This document shows, piece by piece, positions 9,793 through 37,083 of a stretch of 42,398 nt of DNA. The notes under the pieces are model-generated. The model was not told the DNA's origin. It made no database searches and saw nothing but the letters and a program-made list of their open reading frames with translations. Source of the stretch: Deltaproteobacteria bacterium (GTDB lineage Bacteria > Desulfobacterota > Desulfomonilia > Desulfomonilales > Desulfomonilaceae); NCBI GenBank assembly GCA_021777225.1, contig JAJYDQ010000036.1, forward strand, positions 1 to 42,398, given 5' to 3'. Position numbers and translations under genes: made by a program. Within the stretch, counting starts at the first letter, position 1, and each line of letters begins with the position of its first letter.

Positions 9793-10332
9793 CTATAACA
9801 ATGGCCGTTTTAAGACTATTAAGGATTCTAATTGCTTAAGCTGATCGCCATATTTGGCGTCCCCAAAAATCGGGCCGCATTCTTGAAGTTCAACCATGCC
9901 GGCTGCCAGTTTCAAGGCAAAATTGAAACAGGAGCTTTCCCCGCAGACTTTACAGTTGGTTTTTGGAAGTAAGCGGTAAAGTTCCAGCGGCTGGAGGTTT
10001 TCGTGAGTTACCGTATCCGGCTCGATCCCGGAGCGTCGCGCCCAAATATCGTTAACCAGTTTGACGAGGCGATCTATTACATCTTTAGCCTGTTCCCGAG
10101 TATCAAGATGGTCCGCGGCTATGCGGTCATGCCAAAATCCAACTTTATGGTCATCAAGACGCCATGAAAAAACCGGACCATCGACGAAATAGGTCCCATT
10201 TTTAAATGTAGAATTCAGATACGGCAGGACTTCTCTAATATCTACGGGGAGATGCGCTATGGCTTCATATTCAAAAACTTCAGCGCTGTGGTCCGCCACC
10301 TCAATTTCAAGATCGTATGATTCTATAAGCAT
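9793..10332 (-). CDS. 4Fe-4S domain protein of corrinoid-protein type
   Basis: This is a 179-residue soluble protein. The C-terminal third carries C127-x2-C130-G-x3-C135 ... C152 (in KTNCKVCGESSCFNFALKLA and QECGPIF). This is the 4Fe-4S domain (PF04060 type) seen in the corrinoid iron-sulfur protein of acetyl-CoA synthase and in RnfB. The first ~110 residues form a separate alpha/beta domain that I do not recognise; it contains a DGPVFSWRLDDHKVGFWHD block. It probably transfers electrons. The gene is divergent from a B12-type radical SAM gene, sharing a 176-bp intergenic region, which hints at a common cofactor theme. CAGGAG precedes the ATG by six bases. Confidence 0.8.
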   Translation of the reverse strand: MLIESYDLEIEVADHSAEVFEYEAIAHLPVDIREVLPYLNSTFKNGTYFVDGPVFSWRLDDHKVGFWHDRIAADHLDTREQAKDVIDRLVKLVNDIWARRSGIEPDTVTHENLQPLELYRLLPKTNCKVCGESSCFNFALKLAAGMVELQECGPIFGDAKYGDQLKQLESLIVLKRPLL

Positions 10333-10508: not shown

Positions 10509-11783
10509 ATGAGGGCCCTACTAATATCAGTTAACACTCAGGAAATATATATGCGCACATGGCCGCTAGGGTTGGCTTGCGTGGCTGAATCCGCAAGAGT
10601 GGCCTCTCACACGGTAGAGTTTTTGGATCTCATGCACGCCGATGACCCGACCGCTTCCGTCCAAAAAGGTATCAAAGAATTTCGGCCCGATGTGATTGGC
10701 CTATCTGTACGAAATATTGACAGCCAGAAAATGACTGATCAAGGCTTTTTCATAGACAATGTTAAAGGCGTTGTTGAGTGCTGTAGATCCGTAACTAAAG
10801 CGCCTGTAGTTTTAGGAGGAGCTGGCTACAGCATTTATCCGGATAGTCTACTGGAATATCTTAAAGCGGACATGGGGATACAAGGAGAAGGGGAAACAGC
10901 GTTTGTCGAGCTAATTAATCGACTTGAAGGGGGCACTGAACTTGTAGGCGCTCCTGGACTGTACCTCCCCAGACTGGGCCTATCTGGGCCAACGCATTTC
11001 GAGAACGACCTCGACCACCTACCCCTACCGAATGTTAGTTCATTCTCCGATTCAGTTTCAAAAGGAGATGATTTCTGGCTGCCTGTTCAGACCCGTCGGG
11101 GTTGCCCAATGAATTGTTCCTATTGTTCGACGGGTTCAATCGAAGGACGCCTTCTTCGAAAGCGCTCTCCCTGGAAAGTTGTGGACTGGCTACTGGAATG
11201 GCGCAAAACAGGGATTTCACAATTTTATTTCGTGGATAACACCTTCAATTTACCGCCTTCTTATGCCCGAACGCTGTGCGGAGAGATGATTTCGAAGAAT
11301 CTTGACGCTGCATGGCGCTGTATAATGTATCCTGCTAGAACCAGCGAAAAGCTCATTCGCTTGATGGCCGAATCAGGATGCAAAGAAGTTTCCATTGGAT
11401 TTGAGAGCGGTTCCACGCTGATCCTGAACTCAATGAACAAAAAATTCACCAATGATGATGTTCGTTACACATGTGACCTGCTGGCAAAATATGGTATAAG
11501 GAGAATGGGATTTTTGCTTTTGGGCGGTCCTGGCGAAACCAAAGAAACTACCCTTGAAAGTTTGCGTTTTGCCGATTCGTTGAATTTCGAGGTCCTCAAA
11601 CTGACCGTGGGAATTCGAATTTATCCACAAACTATTCTCGCCGAAACCGCTGTAAAGGATGGAATAGTATCTCCGGATGACAACCTACTCGAACCTCGAT
11701 TCTACCTGGTCCCAAGTTTACAGGGCTGGATAAAAGGTGTCGTAGATGAATGGATGTCTTCACGTACCAACTGGGTAAGCTAG
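10509..11783 (+). CDS. B12-binding-domain radical SAM protein
   Basis: This 424-residue protein has an N-terminal cobalamin-binding-like Rossmann domain (residues ~1-150), without the DxHxxG base-off histidine motif. A radical SAM core follows, with the 4Fe-4S motif C199-x3-C203-x2-C206 (RRGCPMNCSYCSTGSIEG). IQGEGETAFVELI is the conserved segment before the core, and VSIGFESGS and GFLLLGGPGET are later core strands. The architecture matches the BchE/P-methyltransferase-like class, which performs radical methylation, cyclisation or ring rearrangement; the substrate is unknown. GAGG lies seven bases before the ATG. A TATAAT at 10453-10458 is a candidate -10. The nearest functional neighbour is the divergent 4Fe-4S protein. 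Confidence 0.9.
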   Translation: MRALLISVNTQEIYMRTWPLGLACVAESARVASHTVEFLDLMHADDPTASVQKGIKEFRPDVIGLSVRNIDSQKMTDQGFFIDNVKGVVECCRSVTKAPVVLGGAGYSIYPDSLLEYLKADMGIQGEGETAFVELINRLEGGTELVGAPGLYLPRLGLSGPTHFENDLDHLPLPNVSSFSDSVSKGDDFWLPVQTRRGCPMNCSYCSTGSIEGRLLRKRSPWKVVDWLLEWRKTGISQFYFVDNTFNLPPSYARTLCGEMISKNLDAAWRCIMYPARTSEKLIRLMAESGCKEVSIGFESGSTLILNSMNKKFTNDDVRYTCDLLAKYGIRRMGFLLLGGPGETKETTLESLRFADSLNFEVLKLTVGIRIYPQTILAETAVKDGIVSPDDNLLEPRFYLVPSLQGWIKGVVDEWMSSRTNWVS

Positions 11784-16158: not shown

Positions 16159-18882
16159 TTAATCCTTGTCAAGAACATTGCGAACATTTTTGAGAAGGTC
16201 CTTTATATCATATGGTTTGTCAACAAACGCCTTTGCTCTTGATAAGAATATTTCTTCCACTTTGCCATTCACCGAATGGCCGCTGGCAATAATGACCTTT
16301 GCTTTGGGGTCAATCCGGAGGACCTCATTCAGAAATTGTTTCCCATCCATCTCAGGCATTATTAAGTCCAGAATCACCAGGGCAATCTCCCTGTTCCGTC
16401 TAATGTATATATTTAAGGCATCTTTTCCATTGCTGGCCGTGATGACTTGATAACCGAAGTTGTCAAGAACTGCGGCGGCTAAATCCCTGACAACCTCGTC
16501 GTCATCCACCAGCAGAATTGTTTCAGTCCCGTGCGGAATGTCCGTTTCACTCTGGAGAATTTCTACGTCCTCATCGGTCTGTATAGCGTGGAAGTAAATC
16601 TTGAATGTTGTCCCTCGACCAGGTTCGCTGTGGCATATGATGTGGCCATCGTGATCCTTAACAATGCCGTAAACGGTTGCGAGCCCAAGGCCGGTCCCTT
16701 TCCCCACCCCCTTGGTAGTAAAGAACGGCTCAAATATATGTGACAGCGTTTCTCTATCGATCCCCTGGCCAGTATCAGAAACCGTCAACAACACATAACG
16801 CCCTGGTTTCGCTTCAATGTTAGTATCGCAATATTCCCGCCCCAGTTCCACGTTTGTCGTTTCAATGGTCAATGTTCCGCCATTTGGCATAGCGTCCCTG
16901 GCGTTGACCGCAAGATTCATTAAAATTTGACCGATTTGAGACTGATCCGCATGGATTGGTTTGATATCTCCGCTTAGACGCAAATCAATCCGGATGGTCT
17001 TGGGGATTGTTCGAGCCAGGAGGCCCTGGATCTGAATAATCTCCTGGTTTAAATTGATAGGTCGATATTTTGTCTCAAGCTTTCTGCTAAACATCAGAAG
17101 GCTTTTGACGAGTTCTGTCCCCCGTTTACCAGCCTGAAAGATTTTCTGCAAATCAGAGTAATCGTTTTCTCCTTCACTTTTTCGTCGAAGCATCAACTCA
17201 GAATATCCCAACACGACCTGAAGCAAGTTATTGAAGTCGTGGGCGATCCCTCCTGCAAGGGTCCCCACAGCCTCCATCTTTTGAGCCTGTATAAACTGCT
17301 TTTGAAGCAACGCTTCCTTGGTGACGTCCCTTGAAACCCCCACATAATTAATTATCCTACCGTACTTGTCCTTAATGGGCGAAATAGTTACCTCAGCTTC
17401 ATAAAGGGTCTTATCCTTTTTCTGATTTGTTAAACGCCCGCGCCAAACTTCCCCTCTGTCCAGGGTCATTTGCAGGTCTTCGTAGACAGCGGTATCCTTT
17501 TCGTTTCTCTCGATTAGTATTCTCGCCTTCTTCCCGACAGCCTCCTGACGGCTGTACCCATTAATTTGTTCAAACGCTGAATTAATGTACAGGATGGTTC
17601 CTTCAGTATCGGTTATCAGGACCGACTCCGCTGATTGCTCAATCGCAGTAGTAAGAAGAAGGCGTTCCTGATCAGCCTGCTTCCGATTTGTAATATCGTG
17701 AGCAAATACCAAAGATCCATTTTGACCCTTGAAAGTTATGGGTACAGCAGAGACCTCCACATCCACGGGCGATCCGTCCATTCGGAGAAAGATCTCCTCG
17801 GCCGCAGGGACTGCCTTCCTCTGGATGCTCGACAGTCGGATACGCTCTTTAACAGTTTTGAGAAAACCCGGATGTATGCAATCCAGAATAGGTTTGCCAA
17901 GAAGGTCCACTTGGGACTCTGCTCCAAATAGCTCCAGCGCACGCTTGTTCAGATAAGCAAAAAGGCCGTCCGTCTGGACAAAAACGGCGTCAGGATCACC
18001 TTCCACAATGGCCCGGAACATTTCCTCGTTCTGTTTCAACGCTGCCTGGGTCAGCTTGAGTTCAGTGATGTTACGATGAATCACGATGCTGGCAGTGTGC
18101 TTACCTTCCATGTCTCGGAGTATGGCCGTTGAAACTTGAATGTCCAGTAACTTGCCTTCTTTGGTCCAACGCTGGGTTTCGAATACAACGTTGGCGCCTC
18201 GTAGTGTTCTTTCCCACGATTGTCTGGTAATCTCGAGTTCCGATAGCGGAACAAAGTTATGTAGAGGTTTGCCGGCTAATTCTTCAACGGACCAACCATA
18301 AAGTTTTTCAAAAGCCCTGTTTGCAAAAGTCACCGCACGCTTGTCATCGTATACAATCAGAGCGTCTGGAATGGTTTCCAGCAGTGAGCGGAAGTGGCCT
18401 TCCCGTTCTTTTAACTCCCTCTCTGAGATCTTGCGCTCCGTTATATCGGTTATCAAGCAGAGGACCGCCCTCCTTCCCTCCCAAATACACACCGATGCAT
18501 TCATCTCTATCCATTTTATTGCGCCATCTTTGCCGACAAGCCTGAAATCGTATTTGCCTGGGCTTTCTTTACCTTCCATTCTCAAGGAGTGATATAGGGC
18601 GACCATGTCTCTGTCGTCCGGATGAACCAGGCCTGAAATGACGTCGGAGGATGACCATTTTCCAAAAGAATATCCTGTAATATCCAAACAGGCCTGATTT
18701 TCATACTTGATCACACCATCTTGAGCTATGAAAATTCCTTCGCCGGCCTTGCTGATTATCTCGCGAAATTGTGATGCCAATTGCCTGGAGATTCTTAGGT
18801 CACTTTCAATCTCGTGAATTCGAAGATCCATGTCCATCAATTCAGCTATTAACTGTTCTTTGGTCTTGTCTTGGCGCTGCAT
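16159..18882 (-). CDS. Cytoplasmic 4-PAS hybrid histidine kinase with receiver domain
   Basis: This 907-residue kinase has no membrane segment. A short coiled start ([14 protein letters not shown]) is followed by four PAS domains at ~40-152, 163-280, 286-405 and 408-525; several end in the typical DITERK-type motif. The HisKA domain has H548 in [12 protein letters not shown], and the ATPase has N660, DTGQGI and [17 protein letters not shown]-terminal receiver domain (787-905) has acidic DDD, phospho-acceptor D839 in [11 protein letters not shown], and K889. It has no DNA-binding output domain. The receiver probably modulates the kinase or passes phosphate to a partner encoded elsewhere. It is divergent from the RND efflux operon. 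A clear paralogue lies at 28623-31505. Co-sensing of redox or small molecules by the PAS domains is likely; ligands are unknown. Confidence 0.93.
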
Positions 18883-28468: not shown

Positions 28469-28622
28469 TTTAGCTTTGACAACCGAGGAACAATTCACAT
28501 TTAGATCTCAACGCTGGGGTTTTGAAAATGATCTTTGCCGCATTGGAGACAGGTTAGTGTCTAGTTAAAACAACTTGATGAAATCTTCGCCTTCGCCACT
28601 ATTGTTTTACGGAGCACGGCTC

Positions 28623-31505
28623 ATGCAGGACCAGGACAAAACCAAAGAACAGCTAATCAGTGAGTTGAATGAGTTGCGACTCAGGACAACCTCATTGATC
28701 CACTCGCATAGTAAAATTGGCGCTACAGAAGAAGCATCTCACGACAAAAATTGTTGGGAAATGTATCGTGAACTCGTCGACTGCACGAACAGTATCATCC
28801 TTCGGTGGAACAGTGACGGCAAAATTACCTTCATAAACAACTTCGGCCAGGCTTTTTTTGGATTTGACCAGAATGAAATACTGAATCGAAACGTTATAGG
28901 GACTATTGTTCCGGAAACGGACCGTTCTGGAAAAGATCTGATAGCAATGATTCGCGACATCGGCGCTCGCCCTGAACGCTACGTGAACAATCAGAACGAA
29001 AACATGCGCAGCAACGGCGAACGGGTTTGGATTTCGTGGACCAACAGACCAATATTGAGCGAGAGCGGAGAGGTTCAGGAAATACTTTCAATTGGCAACG
29101 ATCATACTGACCTTAAGCGGGTAGAGGAACAATTACGGCAAGCAAAATCAGAGCTTGAAAACATGGTGGAAGAACGCACCTCAAAATTACGAGACGCCGT
29201 AGAACAGTTGGAATACAGGCTCCTGGAGCGCAAAAGAGTGGAAGAAGCCCTGCGGGATAGCGAACAAATGGTGGCAGGGATTTTATCCGCCTCACCTGTA
29301 GGGATAGGGTTCACATCTCTTTCCAGAGGTATGTTGTGGGTAAATCAGGCATGGCTTGATCTTTTCGGTTTTCAAGATGAGAAACAGGTACTTGGGCAAA
29401 ATACCGCAAAGCTTTATCCATTCCAACAAGAATTTGAACGTGTCGGAAACACTCTCTATTCAGCCCTCGAAACGGGAAAAGTCGCGGAAACTGACGCTTT
29501 GATGGTACGAACCAATGGGGAGGTCTTTTACGCCAGCATTCGCATGAGCCCCTTTGACACATCAGATCTATCAAAAGGTGTTATTGCGGCAATCTCGGAC
29601 ATAAGTAAGCATAGACGCCTGGAAGAGGATCTCAAAGAAAGGGAAGAGAGGTATCGATCATTAGTTGAGAACAGCTTCGACGGTATAATGCTGCAGAAGG
29701 GACTGATCATCGAATTTGCCAACAATCGGCTGTACGAGATGCTTGGCTATGAAACCGGTGAACTGGAAGGCAAGGAGCACTGGACAATTTACCATCCGGA
29801 TTACCAGAAAATCACGCGTCAACGGGCGCTAGCCAGGATTAGGGGTGAAAAGGCAGTTTCGCAATATGAGGTAAAGCTCCTGAGAAAGAACGGTACCTTT
29901 TTCAGAGGTGAAATTCTAGCTCGTGCAGTAAAAGTTCAGGGTGAACCGGGGGTACAGGTTTGGATCAGGGACATTTCCAAACAGAGAAGATCCGAACAGG
30001 CTCAAAAACTCTTGGCCACCGCTGTTGGACAGGCGACAGAAAGTGTTATCATCACGGACACAGAGGGTAATATCGAGTATGCAAACCCGGCTTTCGAAAC
30101 AATTACCGGTTACTCCAGAGATGAAGTTATCGGCAAGACCCCTCACGTTTTGCTGAGCGGATACCACGACAAACACTTCTATAAAGATCTTTGGGCTACT
30201 ATCAGATGCGGAGAAGCATGGAAAGGCCAGTTCGTAAACAGGAGAAAAGACGGAACTCTTTATCAGGAAGATTCGGTAATATCACCAGTTCGGAACTCTT
30301 CAGGACAAATTGTCAATTTTGTGGCTGTGGGACGCGACAGAACACTGGAGATCGAACTTCAAAAGCAGCTCTTCTGGGCCCAAAAAATGGAAGCTGTTGG
30401 CACATTGGCCGGAGGTATTGCGCACGATTTCAATAACTTGCTCCAGGTCGTTTTGGGCTATTCGGAAGTGATGCTTCAACGCAAGAAGAAGGACCAGCAG
30501 GACTATCCAGAAATTCAAAACATCTATGACGCCGGCAAACGAGGAGCAGAACTTGTTGATAGATTACTTACCTTTAGCAGAAAAGTTGAACCAAAGCTTC
30601 GCCCTACAAACATAAACCAGGAAGTAATTCAGGTTCAGGCCCTACTTGCTCGGACCATACCCAAAACTATCAAGATAGATCTACGCTTAAGTGGCGATTT
30701 AAAATCAGCGCAAGCAGACCCGTCGCAATTAGCCCAAATCTTGATGAATCTTGCGGTAAACGCGAGGGACGCAATGCCGGACGGAGGAACATTTATTATA
30801 GAAACCTCCAACGCTGAGCTGGATAGGGAATTCTGTCTCAGACATCTTGGAGCTAAACCTGGGCGATATGCCCTGCTGGCTGTTTCCGATTCCGGCCACG
30901 GTATGGATAAAGATACATTGCTTCATATCTTCGAGCCATTCTTTACTACCAAGGAAGTGGGAAAAGGCACCGGTCTCGGACTTGCCACGGTTTACGGAAT
31001 CGTCAAACAGCATAATGGCTACATAATCTGTTATAGCGAGCCAGGGCATGGGACCACTTTCAAAATTTACATTCCTGTTATTGCCTCGGCTCAAGATTCT
31101 GCTACAGCATCAGACGAAGCGCCTATTAAAGGCGGGAATGAGACCATTCTGTTAGTCGACGATGACCATTCTTTGAGAAGCTGGGGTGCTCGAATTCTGA
31201 GCGATTTTGGTTACGAAGTCAGGACCGCAGCAAACGGAAAGGAAGCTCTGGAGCAATATAAAAAGGAGAGAGACTCGACATCGCTAGTCATCCTAGACCT
31301 GATCATGCCCGAAATGGACGGTTGGCGCTGCCTGGCTGAAATTTTACAGATCGATCCAGAAGCTAAAGTGCTCATGGCCAGCGGCTACCCCGTAAATTGG
31401 GAGGACGAAACCGCTCTGACCAAAGGGGCGAGGGGATTTGTCCACAAGCCTTATGACACGAAGCAATTTCTGGCGACTGTAAGAGAAATACTGGATTCCG
31501 ACTAA
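28623..31505 (+). CDS. Cytoplasmic multi-PAS hybrid histidine kinase with receiver domain (paralogue)
   Basis: This ~960-residue kinase has no membrane segment. The start [15 protein letters not shown] copies that of the other kinase and follows GGAG by nine bases; in-frame ATG 28578 and TTG 28575 lie further upstream. It has four PAS domains (~45-165, ~212-332, ~340-455 and ~460-575). A Lys/Glu-rich coiled coil at ~168-210 ([20 protein letters not shown]) joins the first two. H601 lies in [12 protein letters not shown], and the ATPase has [18 protein letters not shown] and [15 protein letters not shown]. The receiver domain at ~840-958 has phospho-acceptor D892 in [11 protein letters not shown]. 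From the last PAS domain onward it is strongly similar to the kinase at 16159-18882. Output is unknown; there is no DNA-binding domain or regulator gene next to it. Confidence 0.92.
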
Positions 31506-32802: not shown

Positions 32803-35800
32803 CTAACGGACCATGAACCTGCGCCAGAGAGCGCTTCCCTTCGAGGACTTATTTTCCACTTTGAGCCTCCTTTCCATGTGGTCGTGCGCTTGTTCCATAA
32901 AGGCTTCGATTCGGGTTTTTTCATTGGTCTTTTTCAATCCATCATAAACAAGCGTCAGCATGGGTATTTCGGGCCTGGCCTTGAGCGCTCTCATTAAGGC
33001 CGCCGTAACAACTGTCCCGTACGAACAATTGAGGGTCATTAGATTCAACACTCCATCTGCGCCCGTATTCAAATCTCTCAATGTAGTAGCTATAGGCGCA
33101 GTTATTCCCGCAGGCAGCTTGGTATGAGCGTAGTTGGAGGCGGTCTTCCACATGCCGATCCCCATCAGGTCCAGAGGGCTTTTTGTCACGTCTCTCGCGA
33201 CTTTTGAAGCTCTAACATTCAGCTCCAATATAGTCATCAAAGTATAGAATAGACCGTGGCGAGCAGCGTCTCTGGACTGGCCACTCAGCAGGCTCCACAC
33301 AAAATCCCTGAGTGTGCTGAACTTGAAACAATCCGATAAGGTCGGCGGAGACAAGATGCGTCCTCCGTTGGCTTCAATTTCACGAAAAACGTCATTGTTT
33401 GCAAAAGGGACTACTCTAGTATAGTAGTCACCGGTTACGGCAATTACAGGTCGTGGTTTGTCATCTTCTACAGGAAAAGTATAAAGACAGTGGAGGACTT
33501 CTTCCATTCCTTGTCTGACGCGTCCTGTCATTAGGGCATTATACAGTTTTTCCCGGCATGCCATATAAACTGTGTCGAGAGGTGATTCATCTTTTGCAAG
33601 CGGACGAATCTGTAAAAAGAGACTAAACAGTAGGTCATAGGCGTTTAGACCTTCCCACAACCGTAACAGGATACGCTGATGACTCAGTTTGGAAATCCGG
33701 AATTCATCAAGACCGCGTTCTATGTTTTGTATGACACCTAAAGATAGCCCTAGCTGGCGTCGAACTTTTTCTATGTATACAGGAAATTGCCCCAGACGAC
33801 ACACATCCGGATTAACCATGTAGAATCTGGACCTGTCGACAGAGTCTTCCGGTAGGGTTTTCGCCAGTTTGAGATAGTCGCCCAACACTAACACAAACGG
33901 GTGACATTCTCCTCCTACCATGTGAGGTCGGCCTAGTCTCTCAGACTCTTCGTCAGGAGATGGCAGCACCTTCGCATCGAGCCCAACAGACATTGCGGCA
34001 GCGGCAAACGCATAGGCATGGTCACCCCAATAGGGAAGATATATGGATTCAGCCTTGGAAATACGCCCGATTTTGCCATTCGGTCTGTTCTGAATCGTTG
34101 ATTGTTTTCGCTTCGATCCGTCAGCGATTACTCTATCCGAGCTTCGATGCACATGAATCACCCTTTTGCCTCTTTCCATACGCACTCGGTCCCAAAATGC
34201 TTCGATCCTTGTAATCACACCCGCTCTTGACGAATGTTCGTCCATCTCCAAAGCCAGCATAGGTTTATATGATAAGGCGTCCCTAACGTGACGCAAACTG
34301 AAAGAGTCAGGACCACATCCAAAAAAACCTATGAAAACTGGAAACAATCTTGGGTCTTGGGCGATTTCGCTAGCCACTTGAATCATTCTTGCCTGATACT
34401 TCCATGTGACAGGAGACAGGCTCTCGGAAGAAACAGGATAGAGATCCCCAGGCAGGGCCCTAATCCCCAGTCTCTGGAAAAGACTTCCGAGATTCATGTT
34501 AAGGAAAGTCTCCGCCGTATGATAGGGTTTACCCAGCACAATCAAGGCCTGATCTGAGTCACAAATGGATTTGAGAAATTTTTCCCCTTCTTGCCTGAGG
34601 TTGGCGTTGAATGCGTTTAGTTCCGATAAACCCCGATCGTACGCCGCTATTGCTCTTGAGTGAGAGAATCCCAAACTGGAGGCCAATCGAATATGTTCCC
34701 TGCGAAAAGATCCTGGATCAATTCTGCTGTTTACAATTGGCTCAATCCACTGAACCTCGAAGACTTCCCTGAAAAATTGTGAGGAAGCCTGAATGTATGG
34801 ACAGTAATCCAAGGGTTTTCCGCCAACATGAACTGGCGCTTCGCTCTGGATGGAGGGATGAAAAAGCGCTCTCACCCCTGAATCAATGACGGTCTTGATC
34901 TGCCCTGCCATGACCTTCATCGGAAGGCATGTTTCGACACGAAGTTTTCTCGAACCATCCTCAAACTGTCTCCTGTCTGGTCTAGGGACCACAACCAGGG
35001 AGATTCCAAGTTCATGCAGAAAGGCCTGCCAAAAGGGGAAATATTCATAAAACTGAGGAGATCGCATCATCGCCCAGCGATTGTCGAAATCTGGATGAAG
35101 TTCAATGGCCTTTTCCAACAAATCCCTCCTGAACGAAAAGAGATTTGAATCAGAACAATTCAAATGTGATCTCTCATCTGATTCCCACTTCTCGCACAGA
35201 CCACCATGGAATATGGTTCTCTCACCCGTCCTGTAACGGTTGACCCTGCACTGGTTAGTACAACCGTTGCAATTAAATTGGTCATTCTTTATCTCATTGG
35301 GGTCCCAGATAATTTCTTTACGGCCCTTGATCTTTATTTCTCCCAGGCTGATTTTGTCCAATGCTCTCAATGCGGCGCCTACCGCTCCAGAAACCTTGAA
35401 GAAAGGAGGAATATGAAATTCTCGTCCTGTAAACTGCTCAAATGCCGCCTTAACAGCAGGGGTAGCGGCAACTCCTCCCATAAATAAAACTCTGCCCCCT
35501 AGACCCTTATTGTTCGCAACTCTCTCAAGATAGTTCTGAACTATACTTATACAAACACCCGCAGCCAGATCATTAGAAGACGCACCGTTATTCTGGTGGT
35601 GAATCAGGTCCGATTCCATGAACACTGTGCATCTGTTGCCCAAGTCGGCCGGCGTCTTGGCTGCGAACGCCGCGTCGGAGAAAACCTTTCCCATAGACAG
35701 TTCCAGCCTCTGGCCCTGGGCCATTAGAAAACTTCCCGTGCCTGCGGCGCATACGCGGTTCATCTCAAAATCGGTCATTCGTCCATCTTCAAATGCTATC

Positions 35801-37083
35801 CATTTTGAATCCTGGCCCCCAATTTCGACGACAGTGTCAACCGTCGAATCATGATGCAAAGCTGCGCGGGACTGAGCAGTAATCTCGTTTACAATGAGAT
35901 CTGACTCCAGAAGTCTGCCTACAAGGTCCCGACCGCTGCCGGTAACCGCGATAGCGTCAGGAATAACACCATCGCCCAGGAGAGCGCCCAGCACCTCTGT
36001 TACCGCTTCCAGCGGCATGGATCTGGAGAGACGATAGTCCTCAGCCCTTATAACGCCGTCTGAGTCGATGATCACACCTTTTACAGATACCGATCCAACG
36101 TCCAGCCCCATTACGAGGGGTCGACGCCACGATCCCCGGTCAGACGGGCATACAACGCTAGGAGATATTTGGACCTGCGTCTGTGTGAGAGCCTGAAAGA
36201 AAGATCTTGCCGGCGGACTTTTCAATGCCCGTTCAGCCATATGCTTCATATGACCGAGGGTAAGTCGCAGCCTTAACGGCCGACGGGAGGCCAATTCCGC
36301 GCAACCGAGCGCCCCAAGCACCTTGAAGTGTGGTGGGACCACAATTTCTCCCGGCCCAAGCTGTAAAGCTTCCCTAAAGGCATGGACTACCGCCTGATTG
36401 CTCATCACCCCACCCTGAAGAGACACCAGAGGCCACGGCGTATCACCCTTTATAAGGGTAGATACAAAATTCCTTACAAGCGCGACAGCAAGGCCCAAGA
36501 GGATGTCGGGAATCGGGGTCCCTTCCTGAGCCTGGTGTATCATGTCCGTCTTGGCGAACACTGCACACCGGCCAGCAATGGACGCAGGGGTAGAACTCCG
36601 AAGAGCGATGGCGCCGAACGACTCGACACCAATGCCAAGCCGTTCCGCCTGTTCGTCAAGAAAAGCCCCTGTGCCGGCTGCGCATATTTCGTTCATTCTG
36701 AAAACAGGGACTCTCGGAATCCCGTTGTCCGGAGAAGGCTCGATTCGTATGTACTTCGAATCTTGCCCACCGATCTCAATGATTGTCCTGATTTCAGGGT
36801 TAACTTTATGAGCGCCGACAGCATGCGCCGTGATTTCATTTATTGCAGGAATTTCCAGTGCCTTCGAGAGAAGTTCTCTTGCGCTGCCAGTTACAAGGGC
36901 CCCTGCCAGAGTGAGGTCTCCCCCGCAGGAATCAGACATTTGGCCAAGCGCTTCAACAAATGTCTGAAGTGGCCGGCCGCGAGTGCGAAGATAAATCGAG
37001 ATGGGTTCATCTGAATCGTAATTTATCAAGAAAAGATTTAGGCTGACCGAACCACAATCAACTCCCAGAAATCTCCCTGCCAT
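32803..37083 (-). CDS. Double 2-hydroxyacyl-CoA dehydratase activase fused to DUF2229/HgdB-like domains
   Basis: This is a 1426-residue cytoplasmic protein. Two BcrAD/BadFG-type ASKHA ATPase domains lie in tandem. The first (~5-265) has GVDCGSVS, IEIGGQDSKYI, Cys134 in CAAGTGAF and Cys173. The second (~325-575) has GLDVGSVSVK, VEIGGQDSKWI, Cys445 in CAAGTGSF and Cys485. In two-subunit activators these cysteines hold one 4Fe-4S cluster at the dimer interface; here both halves are in one chain. A further cysteine set (C605, C608, C612, C630) opens the DUF2229 region, and the C-terminal ~450 residues resemble the dehydratase D-component. Activators use ATP to inject a low-potential electron into dehydratases or benzoyl-CoA reductases. 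No partner subunits are nearby, so the target is unknown. GGAG precedes the ATG. Confidence 0.92.
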   Translation of the reverse strand: MAGRFLGVDCGSVSLNLFLINYDSDEPISIYLRTRGRPLQTFVEALGQMSDSCGGDLTLAGALVTGSARELLSKALEIPAINEITAHAVGAHKVNPEIRTIIEIGGQDSKYIRIEPSPDNGIPRVPVFRMNEICAAGTGAFLDEQAERLGIGVESFGAIALRSSTPASIAGRCAVFAKTDMIHQAQEGTPIPDILLGLAVALVRNFVSTLIKGDTPWPLVSLQGGVMSNQAVVHAFREALQLGPGEIVVPPHFKVLGALGCAELASRRPLRLRLTLGHMKHMAERALKSPPARSFFQALTQTQVQISPSVVCPSDRGSWRRPLVMGLDVGSVSVKGVIIDSDGVIRAEDYRLSRSMPLEAVTEVLGALLGDGVIPDAIAVTGSGRDLVGRLLESDLIVNEITAQSRAALHHDSTVDTVVEIGGQDSKWIAFEDGRMTDFEMNRVCAAGTGSFLMAQGQRLELSMGKVFSDAAFAAKTPADLGNRCTVFMESDLIHHQNNGASSNDLAAGVCISIVQNYLERVANNKGLGGRVLFMGGVAATPAVKAAFEQFTGREFHIPPFFKVSGAVGAALRALDKISLGEIKIKGRKEIIWDPNEIKNDQFNCNGCTNQCRVNRYRTGERTIFHGGLCEKWESDERSHLNCSDSNLFSFRRDLLEKAIELHPDFDNRWAMMRSPQFYEYFPFWQAFLHELGISLVVVPRPDRRQFEDGSRKLRVETCLPMKVMAGQIKTVIDSGVRALFHPSIQSEAPVHVGGKPLDYCPYIQASSQFFREVFEVQWIEPIVNSRIDPGSFRREHIRLASSLGFSHSRAIAAYDRGLSELNAFNANLRQEGEKFLKSICDSDQALIVLGKPYHTAETFLNMNLGSLFQRLGIRALPGDLYPVSSESLSPVTWKYQARMIQVASEIAQDPRLFPVFIGFFGCGPDSFSLRHVRDALSYKPMLALEMDEHSSRAGVITRIEAFWDRVRMERGKRVIHVHRSSDRVIADGSKRKQSTIQNRPNGKIGRISKAESIYLPYWGDHAYAFAAAAMSVGLDAKVLPSPDEESERLGRPHMVGGECHPFVLVLGDYLKLAKTLPEDSVDRSRFYMVNPDVCRLGQFPVYIEKVRRQLGLSLGVIQNIERGLDEFRISKLSHQRILLRLWEGLNAYDLLFSLFLQIRPLAKDESPLDTVYMACREKLYNALMTGRVRQGMEEVLHCLYTFPVEDDKPRPVIAVTGDYYTRVVPFANNDVFREIEANGGRILSPPTLSDCFKFSTLRDFVWSLLSGQSRDAARHGLFYTLMTILELNVRASKVARDVTKSPLDLMGIGMWKTASNYAHTKLPAGITAPIATTLRDLNTGADGVLNLMTLNCSYGTVVTAALMRALKARPEIPMLTLVYDGLKKTNEKTRIEAFMEQAHDHMERRLKVENKSSKGSALWRRFMVR

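Follow-up and report, generated by a model that had tools for sequence, protein, structure and literature searches.

Where does a giant double activase deliver its electrons? The question is raised by a 42,398-nucleotide stretch of a Deltaproteobacteria bacterium genome (contig JAJYDQ010000036.1; the whole stretch is called the window here), in which one open reading frame (ORF) at 32803-37083 on the minus strand, with an ATG start, encodes a protein of 1426 aa, referred to below as the giant. An earlier note on this DNA had read the giant as a double activase only, with an unknown external electron acceptor. Our analysis of its sequence and structural models indicated that the acceptor probably lies in the same chain as the activase. 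We consider it quite probable that the giant, with all components in a single chain, is a self-contained reductase that is driven by ATP, works at low potential and belongs to the benzoyl-CoA reductase/2-hydroxyacyl-CoA dehydratase (BCR/HAD) superfamily. Residues 640-1426, over half of the protein, are not activase, and two acceptor-like modules, A and B, are fused there. The layout in window coordinates is as follows.

32803..37083, minus strand: single-chain activase-activase-4Cys-A-B protein, 1426 aa, from the ORF and its domains; homologues have about the same length.
36259..37083, minus strand: N-terminal ASKHA activase half, residues 1-275, with C134 and C173, from matches to 9gai_C and 7yyl_E.
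35338..36120, minus strand: second ASKHA activase half, residues 322-582, with C445 and C485, from Pfam and matches to 4eht_A, HgdC 1hux_A, 9gai_D and 4ehu_B.
35164..35301, minus strand: four-cysteine (4-Cys) element F, residues 595-640, with C605, C608, C612 and C630 spaced CX2CX3CX17C, from column conservation and a fusion at locus L055.
34174..35127, minus strand: dehydratase-like module A, residues 653-970, with the triad C719, C761 and C923, from DUF2229, 3o3m_D and hhalign.
32806..34056, minus strand: dehydratase-like module B, residues 1010-1426, with the triad C1060, C1095 and C1353, from hhalign to module A and to HGD-D, and from PF06050.

The activase part of the chain is as the earlier note had described it: the ORF, the eight cysteines named there (134, 173, 445, 485, 605, 608, 612 and 630) and two activase halves with a cluster-type cysteine pair each, which appear in domain searches as two stretches matched by TIGR00241 and BcrAD_BadFG (PF01869) with 265.6 and 229.5 bits against curated cut-offs of 125.4 and 31.5. 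Beyond the activase halves, DUF2229 (PF09989) was found at residues 677-880, within module A (134.8 bits, cut-off 29.4), and HGD-D (PF06050) at residues 1340-1398 (31.4 bits, cut-off 28.4), the latter covering only profile positions 282-341 of 342 and scoring 25.3, below the cut-off, at the same place in the genome scan. The claim that the window holds no dehydratase or benzoyl-CoA reductase subunits is correct for separate genes: in a six-frame PF06050 search of the whole genome, every hit on the window contig (C24) falls within this gene, and a Pfam scan (E <= 1e-5) of 20 further ORFs of the window, a subset of those present, gave no HGD-D match. It fails for the chain itself, which carries DUF2229 and the end of HGD-D.

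Cysteine conservation was analysed in two sets of full-length sequences, one of 36 (the window's included) that took ORFs of 1380-1470 aa only, and one of 90 (the window's own protein and 89 homologues) that was extended with ORFs of 1360 aa or more. The smaller set contains exactly 14 invariant cysteine columns (36/36 each): 134, 173, 445 and 485; 605, 608, 612 and 630; 719, 761 and 923; and 1060, 1095 and 1353. In the larger set, the activase cysteines and the module A triad are present in 90/90 sequences and the module B triad in 89/90, with the four positions of element F at 89, 87, 89 and 89; two of the three sequences that miss position 608 (L147 and L148) have four cysteines, spaced differently. 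On the sequence evidence, these conserved cysteines are not due to chance, and the six in residues 640-1426 (719, 761, 923, 1060, 1095 and 1353) had been overlooked by the earlier note. Spacing is near-constant across 89 sequences, with the exception of 761-923 (162-174) and 1095-1353 (248-280); L153 was excluded from this table, from the A and B profiles and from alignments A2 and A3 because it has no cysteines of element F or module B. The motif at residues 1353-1356, at the third cysteine of module B, is CSYG in window-type sequences, with CMPG commonest in the others. The second metal site that had been proposed at 605/608/612/630 stands as far as presence and conservation go, and element F may well bind metal; PMC11574389 gives [4Fe-4S] binding as the prediction for the CX2CX3CX11-13C motif of a different enzyme family.

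To place the acceptor, we modelled residues 592-1426 with AlphaFold2 (54 sequences; mean predicted local distance difference test [pLDDT] 84.0, predicted template modelling score [pTM] 0.85) and compared the result with solved structures. Foldseek returned nine matches at E <= 0.001, all of them BzdNO, MbdON, DCCP (double-cubane cluster protein) or 2-hydroxyisocaproyl-CoA dehydratase chains. VIA ranked ten BCR/HAD/DCCP entries at Z 11.6-15.2, ahead of an unrelated entry at 9.0; this ranking was limited to chains found by Foldseek, so that the absence of other families from it carries no meaning. The family rows mostly cover approximately residues 62-379 of the model, corresponding to residues 653-970 of the protein, namely module A, which has a dehydratase-subunit fold (3o3m_D, Z 15.2, root mean square deviation [rmsd] 3.8, 269 aligned). 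In the model, module A shares the fold of HadC, DCCP and BzdN. Comparison of the two modules by hhalign revealed an alignment over 301 columns (E 8.7e-14) with C719/C1060, C761/C1095 and C923/C1353 in register, and both modules aligned with ordinary HGD-D profiles (A, E 6.1e-06; B, E 1.9e-05), for which 30/33 ORFs were retained by length and L195 and L196, with only 1 and 3 cysteines, may be wrong ORFs. By these profile alignments, modules A and B are homologous and dehydratase-like. The apparently missing acceptor is assigned to the same chain because module A folds like HadC, DCCP and BzdN and module B aligns to A with its cysteines in register. The triad spacing of module B (35, 258) resembles that of the BzdO cluster ligands Cys95/128/380 (33, 252), as listed in PMC11971306, where cysteines are also placed at six irons of the BzdN [8Fe-9S] cluster. 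A two-component dehydratase, according to PMC11574389, has two homologous acceptor subunits with three cysteines each plus an activator; judged by its cysteines, the giant with three per acceptor module has this dehydratase pattern, unlike the six of a double cubane.

The activase halves match solved activators individually. By sequence, residues 6-275 of the N-half match 9gai_C (MbdP, E 2.8e-26), and the C-half matches 4eht_A (E 1.2e-28) and HgdC 1hux_A (E 1.8e-28). A confident model of residues 1-640 (mean pLDDT 90.5, pTM 0.88) superimposes the N-half on DCCP-R (7yyl_E; Z 22.5, rmsd 2.4, 242 aligned) and the C-half on 9gai_D (Z 29.0), 4ehu_B (Z 29.0) and 1hux_A (Z 28.3). In the alignment to 1hux_A, C445 and C485 fall on HgdC residues 127 and 166, both Cys, which we take to be the HgdC cluster ligands. 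A cluster shared within the chain by the two halves is plausible and agrees with the models. A tree of activase halves, built from 25 of the 90 sequences together with 15 single-activase rows (some identical), places every C-half in one group (98/97), adjoining the single activase of L055 (94/88, not firm), and the three labels take 3 changes, with 2 the minimum possible; the tree suggests that the tandem activase arose early, before its spread across many phyla. L055, a three-gene form, has one activase only, with one cysteine pair, which fits fused halves standing in for a homodimer. Residue 454 in the second half (window 35722-35724) is Glu in 73/79 other sequences and Met in 9/10 window-type sequences, and given this change the two ATP sites may be unequal in the window-type lineage.

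For such a chain, we propose that the two activase halves would share one [4Fe-4S] cluster, held by two cysteines from each half and reduced by a ferredoxin or flavodoxin. ATP binding and hydrolysis on both halves would bend the cluster-bearing helices, driving one electron to the three-cysteine cluster of module A. The electron would then pass to the cluster of module B, with three cysteines and one free iron site, where the substrate might be reduced or dehydrated. The 4-Cys element would most likely be a further [4Fe-4S] relay, functionally tied to module B, and the default guess from the family is that the substrate would be a CoA ester.

Natural split forms respect the same module borders. 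Among 80 loci surveyed, 58 have the one-chain order, and 2 further loci have the same order with an extra activase piece. At 14 loci, an activase-activase-4Cys-A frame is followed by module B as a separate frame, B itself being in two pieces in two of the 14; the remaining loci comprise 3 without the 4-Cys element and 3 other or cut. The split falls at the A/B border in every locus of this two-frame kind; some of the split loci lie on contigs of metagenome-assembled genomes (MAGs), where a frameshift could imitate a split. At L055, the minus strand carries B, A and activase-with-4-Cys-element, in that order, as three genes, which jointly hold the same cysteines with a single activase pair. Eleven stand-alone B ORFs carry the full triad, and natural split versions in general break at module borders and retain the same cysteines.

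Seven sequences (L131, L141, L153 and L214-L217) lack the 4-Cys element wholly, and Tyr/Glu(Asp)/Glu replaces their B triad wherever it is readable (unread are 1353 in L216, and 1095 and 1353 in L217), while all activase and A cysteines are retained. The other 26 rows compared have the full 4-Cys element. Of these, 14 show a complete B triad, L230 shows two readable cysteines of the three, and 11 leave the triad unread: for nine the sequence stretch ends earlier, and for L231 and L232, perhaps two-gene forms, the frame ends at 994 aa and 977 aa. The seven sequences form one clade (100/100), nested among intact sequences under a midpoint root, and the joint loss of the 4-Cys element and B triad may have been a single event. 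Loss of the two together, with the cysteines of the activase and of module A retained, hints that module B is served by the 4-Cys element and module A by the activase. Module B of the clade possibly holds a different metal site or is a dead module. A more far-reaching proposal, which we offer only tentatively and think doubtful as a whole, is that the giants form a large, ancient BCR/HAD branch with pump, relay and catalytic centre in one chain, four Fe-S sites, no partner and a substrate beyond the known aromatic and 2-hydroxyacyl CoA esters, from which one derived clade shed relay and catalytic triad together.

By record title, the family of the giant (DUF2229) occurs in many phyla; it was found in 48 of 60 genomes searched, and the window-type giant (E <= 1e-250) in 13, the window's own genome being included in both counts. 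In that genome, the search gave seven matches: the giant, two relatives of giant type that are truncated at contig ends (C41 and C52) and four of activase size (C49, C144 and two on C147). The giant might instead be an activase for a separate partner, its A/B part being only docking or regulatory and the true acceptor one of the four separate HGD-D proteins that a six-frame PF06050 search found in the window genome. We judge this improbable: the genome also has four separate activase genes, two adjacent on C147 and one beside the C49 HGD-D gene; the cysteine triads of modules A and B are complete; and 22 of 46 other giant-bearing genomes (from the 80 loci) have no HGD-D match at E <= 0.001. 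Since acceptor-like modules are fused in the chain and these 22 genomes lack such a match, a separate HGD-D-family partner seems not to be required, and the double activase of the earlier note gives way to a chain with its own acceptor modules. Among 14 control genomes, 4 have DUF2229 and none of these is among the 2 with PF06050.

Several observations weigh against a self-contained reductase. HGD-D matches are present in 24/46 giant-bearing genomes (in one of the 24, only a sub-cut-off hit in a 1460-aa ORF that probably is itself a giant), and many giant-bearing genomes are MAGs, which makes absence of HGD-D soft. The DUF2229 scan of the control genomes gives no ORF lengths, and Thermus composti has a DUF2229 match with no activase-domain match, for which reason its DUF2229 protein is probably not a giant. 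The curated models of class I benzoyl-CoA reductase scored below their cut-offs (TIGR02259, 145/578; TIGR02261, 112.3/312.85; TIGR03192, 102/380.2 bits). The nine Foldseek matches score low globally (template modelling score by target 0.46-0.54, rmsd 7.6-15.8); the VIA rows on module B (approximately residues 575-829 of the model), which was modelled only together with A, belong to generic folds (receiver, B12-domain and CTP-synthase) with Z no higher than 9.0; and a sequence search of solved structures with the A+B profile gave nothing related (best E 0.079, unrelated). Six stand-alone B ORFs have no PF06050 match, and four match DUF2229 weakly, below the cut-off. The scan of 20 neighbours in the window brought out no conspicuous genes of a substrate pathway. 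The cluster types, electron path, donor, substrate and ATPase activity proposed above are ones that we infer.

The gene neighbourhood raises a second alternative. The earlier note had called the giant stand-alone, which is accurate for this genus, where the window gene is flanked by an RRM protein on one side and a divergent EamA transporter on the other, two congeners share its place and a third has another. It does not describe the sister genera, in which a conserved cluster sets the giant between a radical SAM gene and a Cache-HAMP-receiver-PAS gene, usually with a SpoIIE-type phosphatase next in line. The radical SAM gene is directly upstream of the giant in 7 loci, and 6 show the order radical SAM-giant-receiver. 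The giant could accordingly be the electron source of a radical SAM enzyme, a reading to which we give little chance. In its favour, a radical SAM gene lies -40 to 383 bp upstream on the same strand in 15/120 giant loci, 7 in the window family and 8 in other lineages (L058, L061, L064, L065, L096, L123, L132 and L142; up to 381 bp upstream, with a 16-bp overlap in L123); Pfam identity was taken from one member per subfamily, and L117, at 3303 bp upstream, was excluded from the count. These upstream genes belong to two subfamilies, and blastp between one member of each gave no significant alignment (E 3.3). Further against it, the radical SAM gene of the window genome is on another contig, C122 (L203, G000:C122), where the radical SAM/receiver cluster has a gap between 29084 and 29404 and no giant. 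In 6/6 genus genomes examined (of seven; G006 has a contig-edge fragment only), the radical SAM and receiver genes are direct neighbours, separated by 319-329 bp that contain no giant; the giant is also absent at this site in G008 and G015 (other genera of the same family), and G012 has other neighbours at its radical SAM gene. A radical SAM protein (E <= 1e-60) is present in 52/60 genomes, own included, against 13/60 for the window-type giant. A functional link to the upstream gene was marked down after these presence/absence and empty-site checks. No convincing giant remnants were found in the 319-bp gap of C122 (best tblastn E 0.074), and the gene may either have been lost from the cluster in this genus or have entered it in other lineages. 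The weakest alternative, a DCCP fused to its reductase, is very unlikely, for although 6eno (Z 13.9) and 7yzm_A (Z 14.0) put DCCP near the top of the VIA ranking for module A, its [8Fe-9S] is held by cysteines at six irons according to PMC11971306, and here each module has three conserved cysteines.

Other neighbours vary. The L058 radical SAM protein is weakly MoaA-like. At 6/120 loci, a nearby gene belongs to a single cluster, whose L058 member is an RNase E/G according to Pfam, and RNase E/G, ABC-transporter and UPF0102 neighbours (Pfam, one member each) recur in some lineages, not around the window gene. Elsewhere in the window are a B12-binding radical SAM protein (10509-11780), adjoined on the other strand by a protein of 179 aa (9796-10332) that carries a putative Fe-S motif, and two large hybrid histidine kinases that combine multiple PAS domains with receiver domains (28575-31502 and 16162-18882).

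Taken as a self-contained reductase, the giant is a one-chain member of the BCR/HAD superfamily that is conserved, widespread and uncharacterised. Few biological systems use ATP to drive reduction at very low potential, and a single chain with fixed stoichiometry could ease expression, mutation and time-resolved work compared with four-subunit or dissociating two-component enzymes. In the literature searched (activase, dehydratase, fusion), mostly without subscription papers, DUF2229 is named in one paper, and we found no description of the one-chain form and no assigned substrate for its family; because the family is widespread and yet has no such assignment, one successful assay would explain many genes.

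Comparison with known systems places the giant among four relatives. With the 2-hydroxyacyl-CoA dehydratases (HgdAB/HadBC with HgdC/HadI), as described in PMC11574389, it has in common the activase fold, the cysteine pairs and two homologous three-cysteine acceptor parts, whereas the giant holds all of these in one chain, has two unlike activase halves and carries an extra 4-Cys element. Class I benzoyl-CoA reductase (BzdNOPQ, MbdONPQ) likewise combines two unlike activases with two unlike acceptor modules; the giant differs in being one polypeptide, in conserving three cysteines, not six, in the part that corresponds to the double-cubane subunit, and in falling below the cut-offs of the curated models. 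DCCP shares the fold of module A and DCCP-R fits the activase N-half, whereas the giant is without the six-cysteine set and has unlike A and B modules instead of a homodimer. An apparent two-gene version is noted in two Ruminococcus MAGs from hydrocarbon-degrading consortia in PMC11362221, which proposes an acyl-CoA reductase for aromatics and leaves the exact function open. Its account reads like a description of the same system, but with module B as a separate gene.

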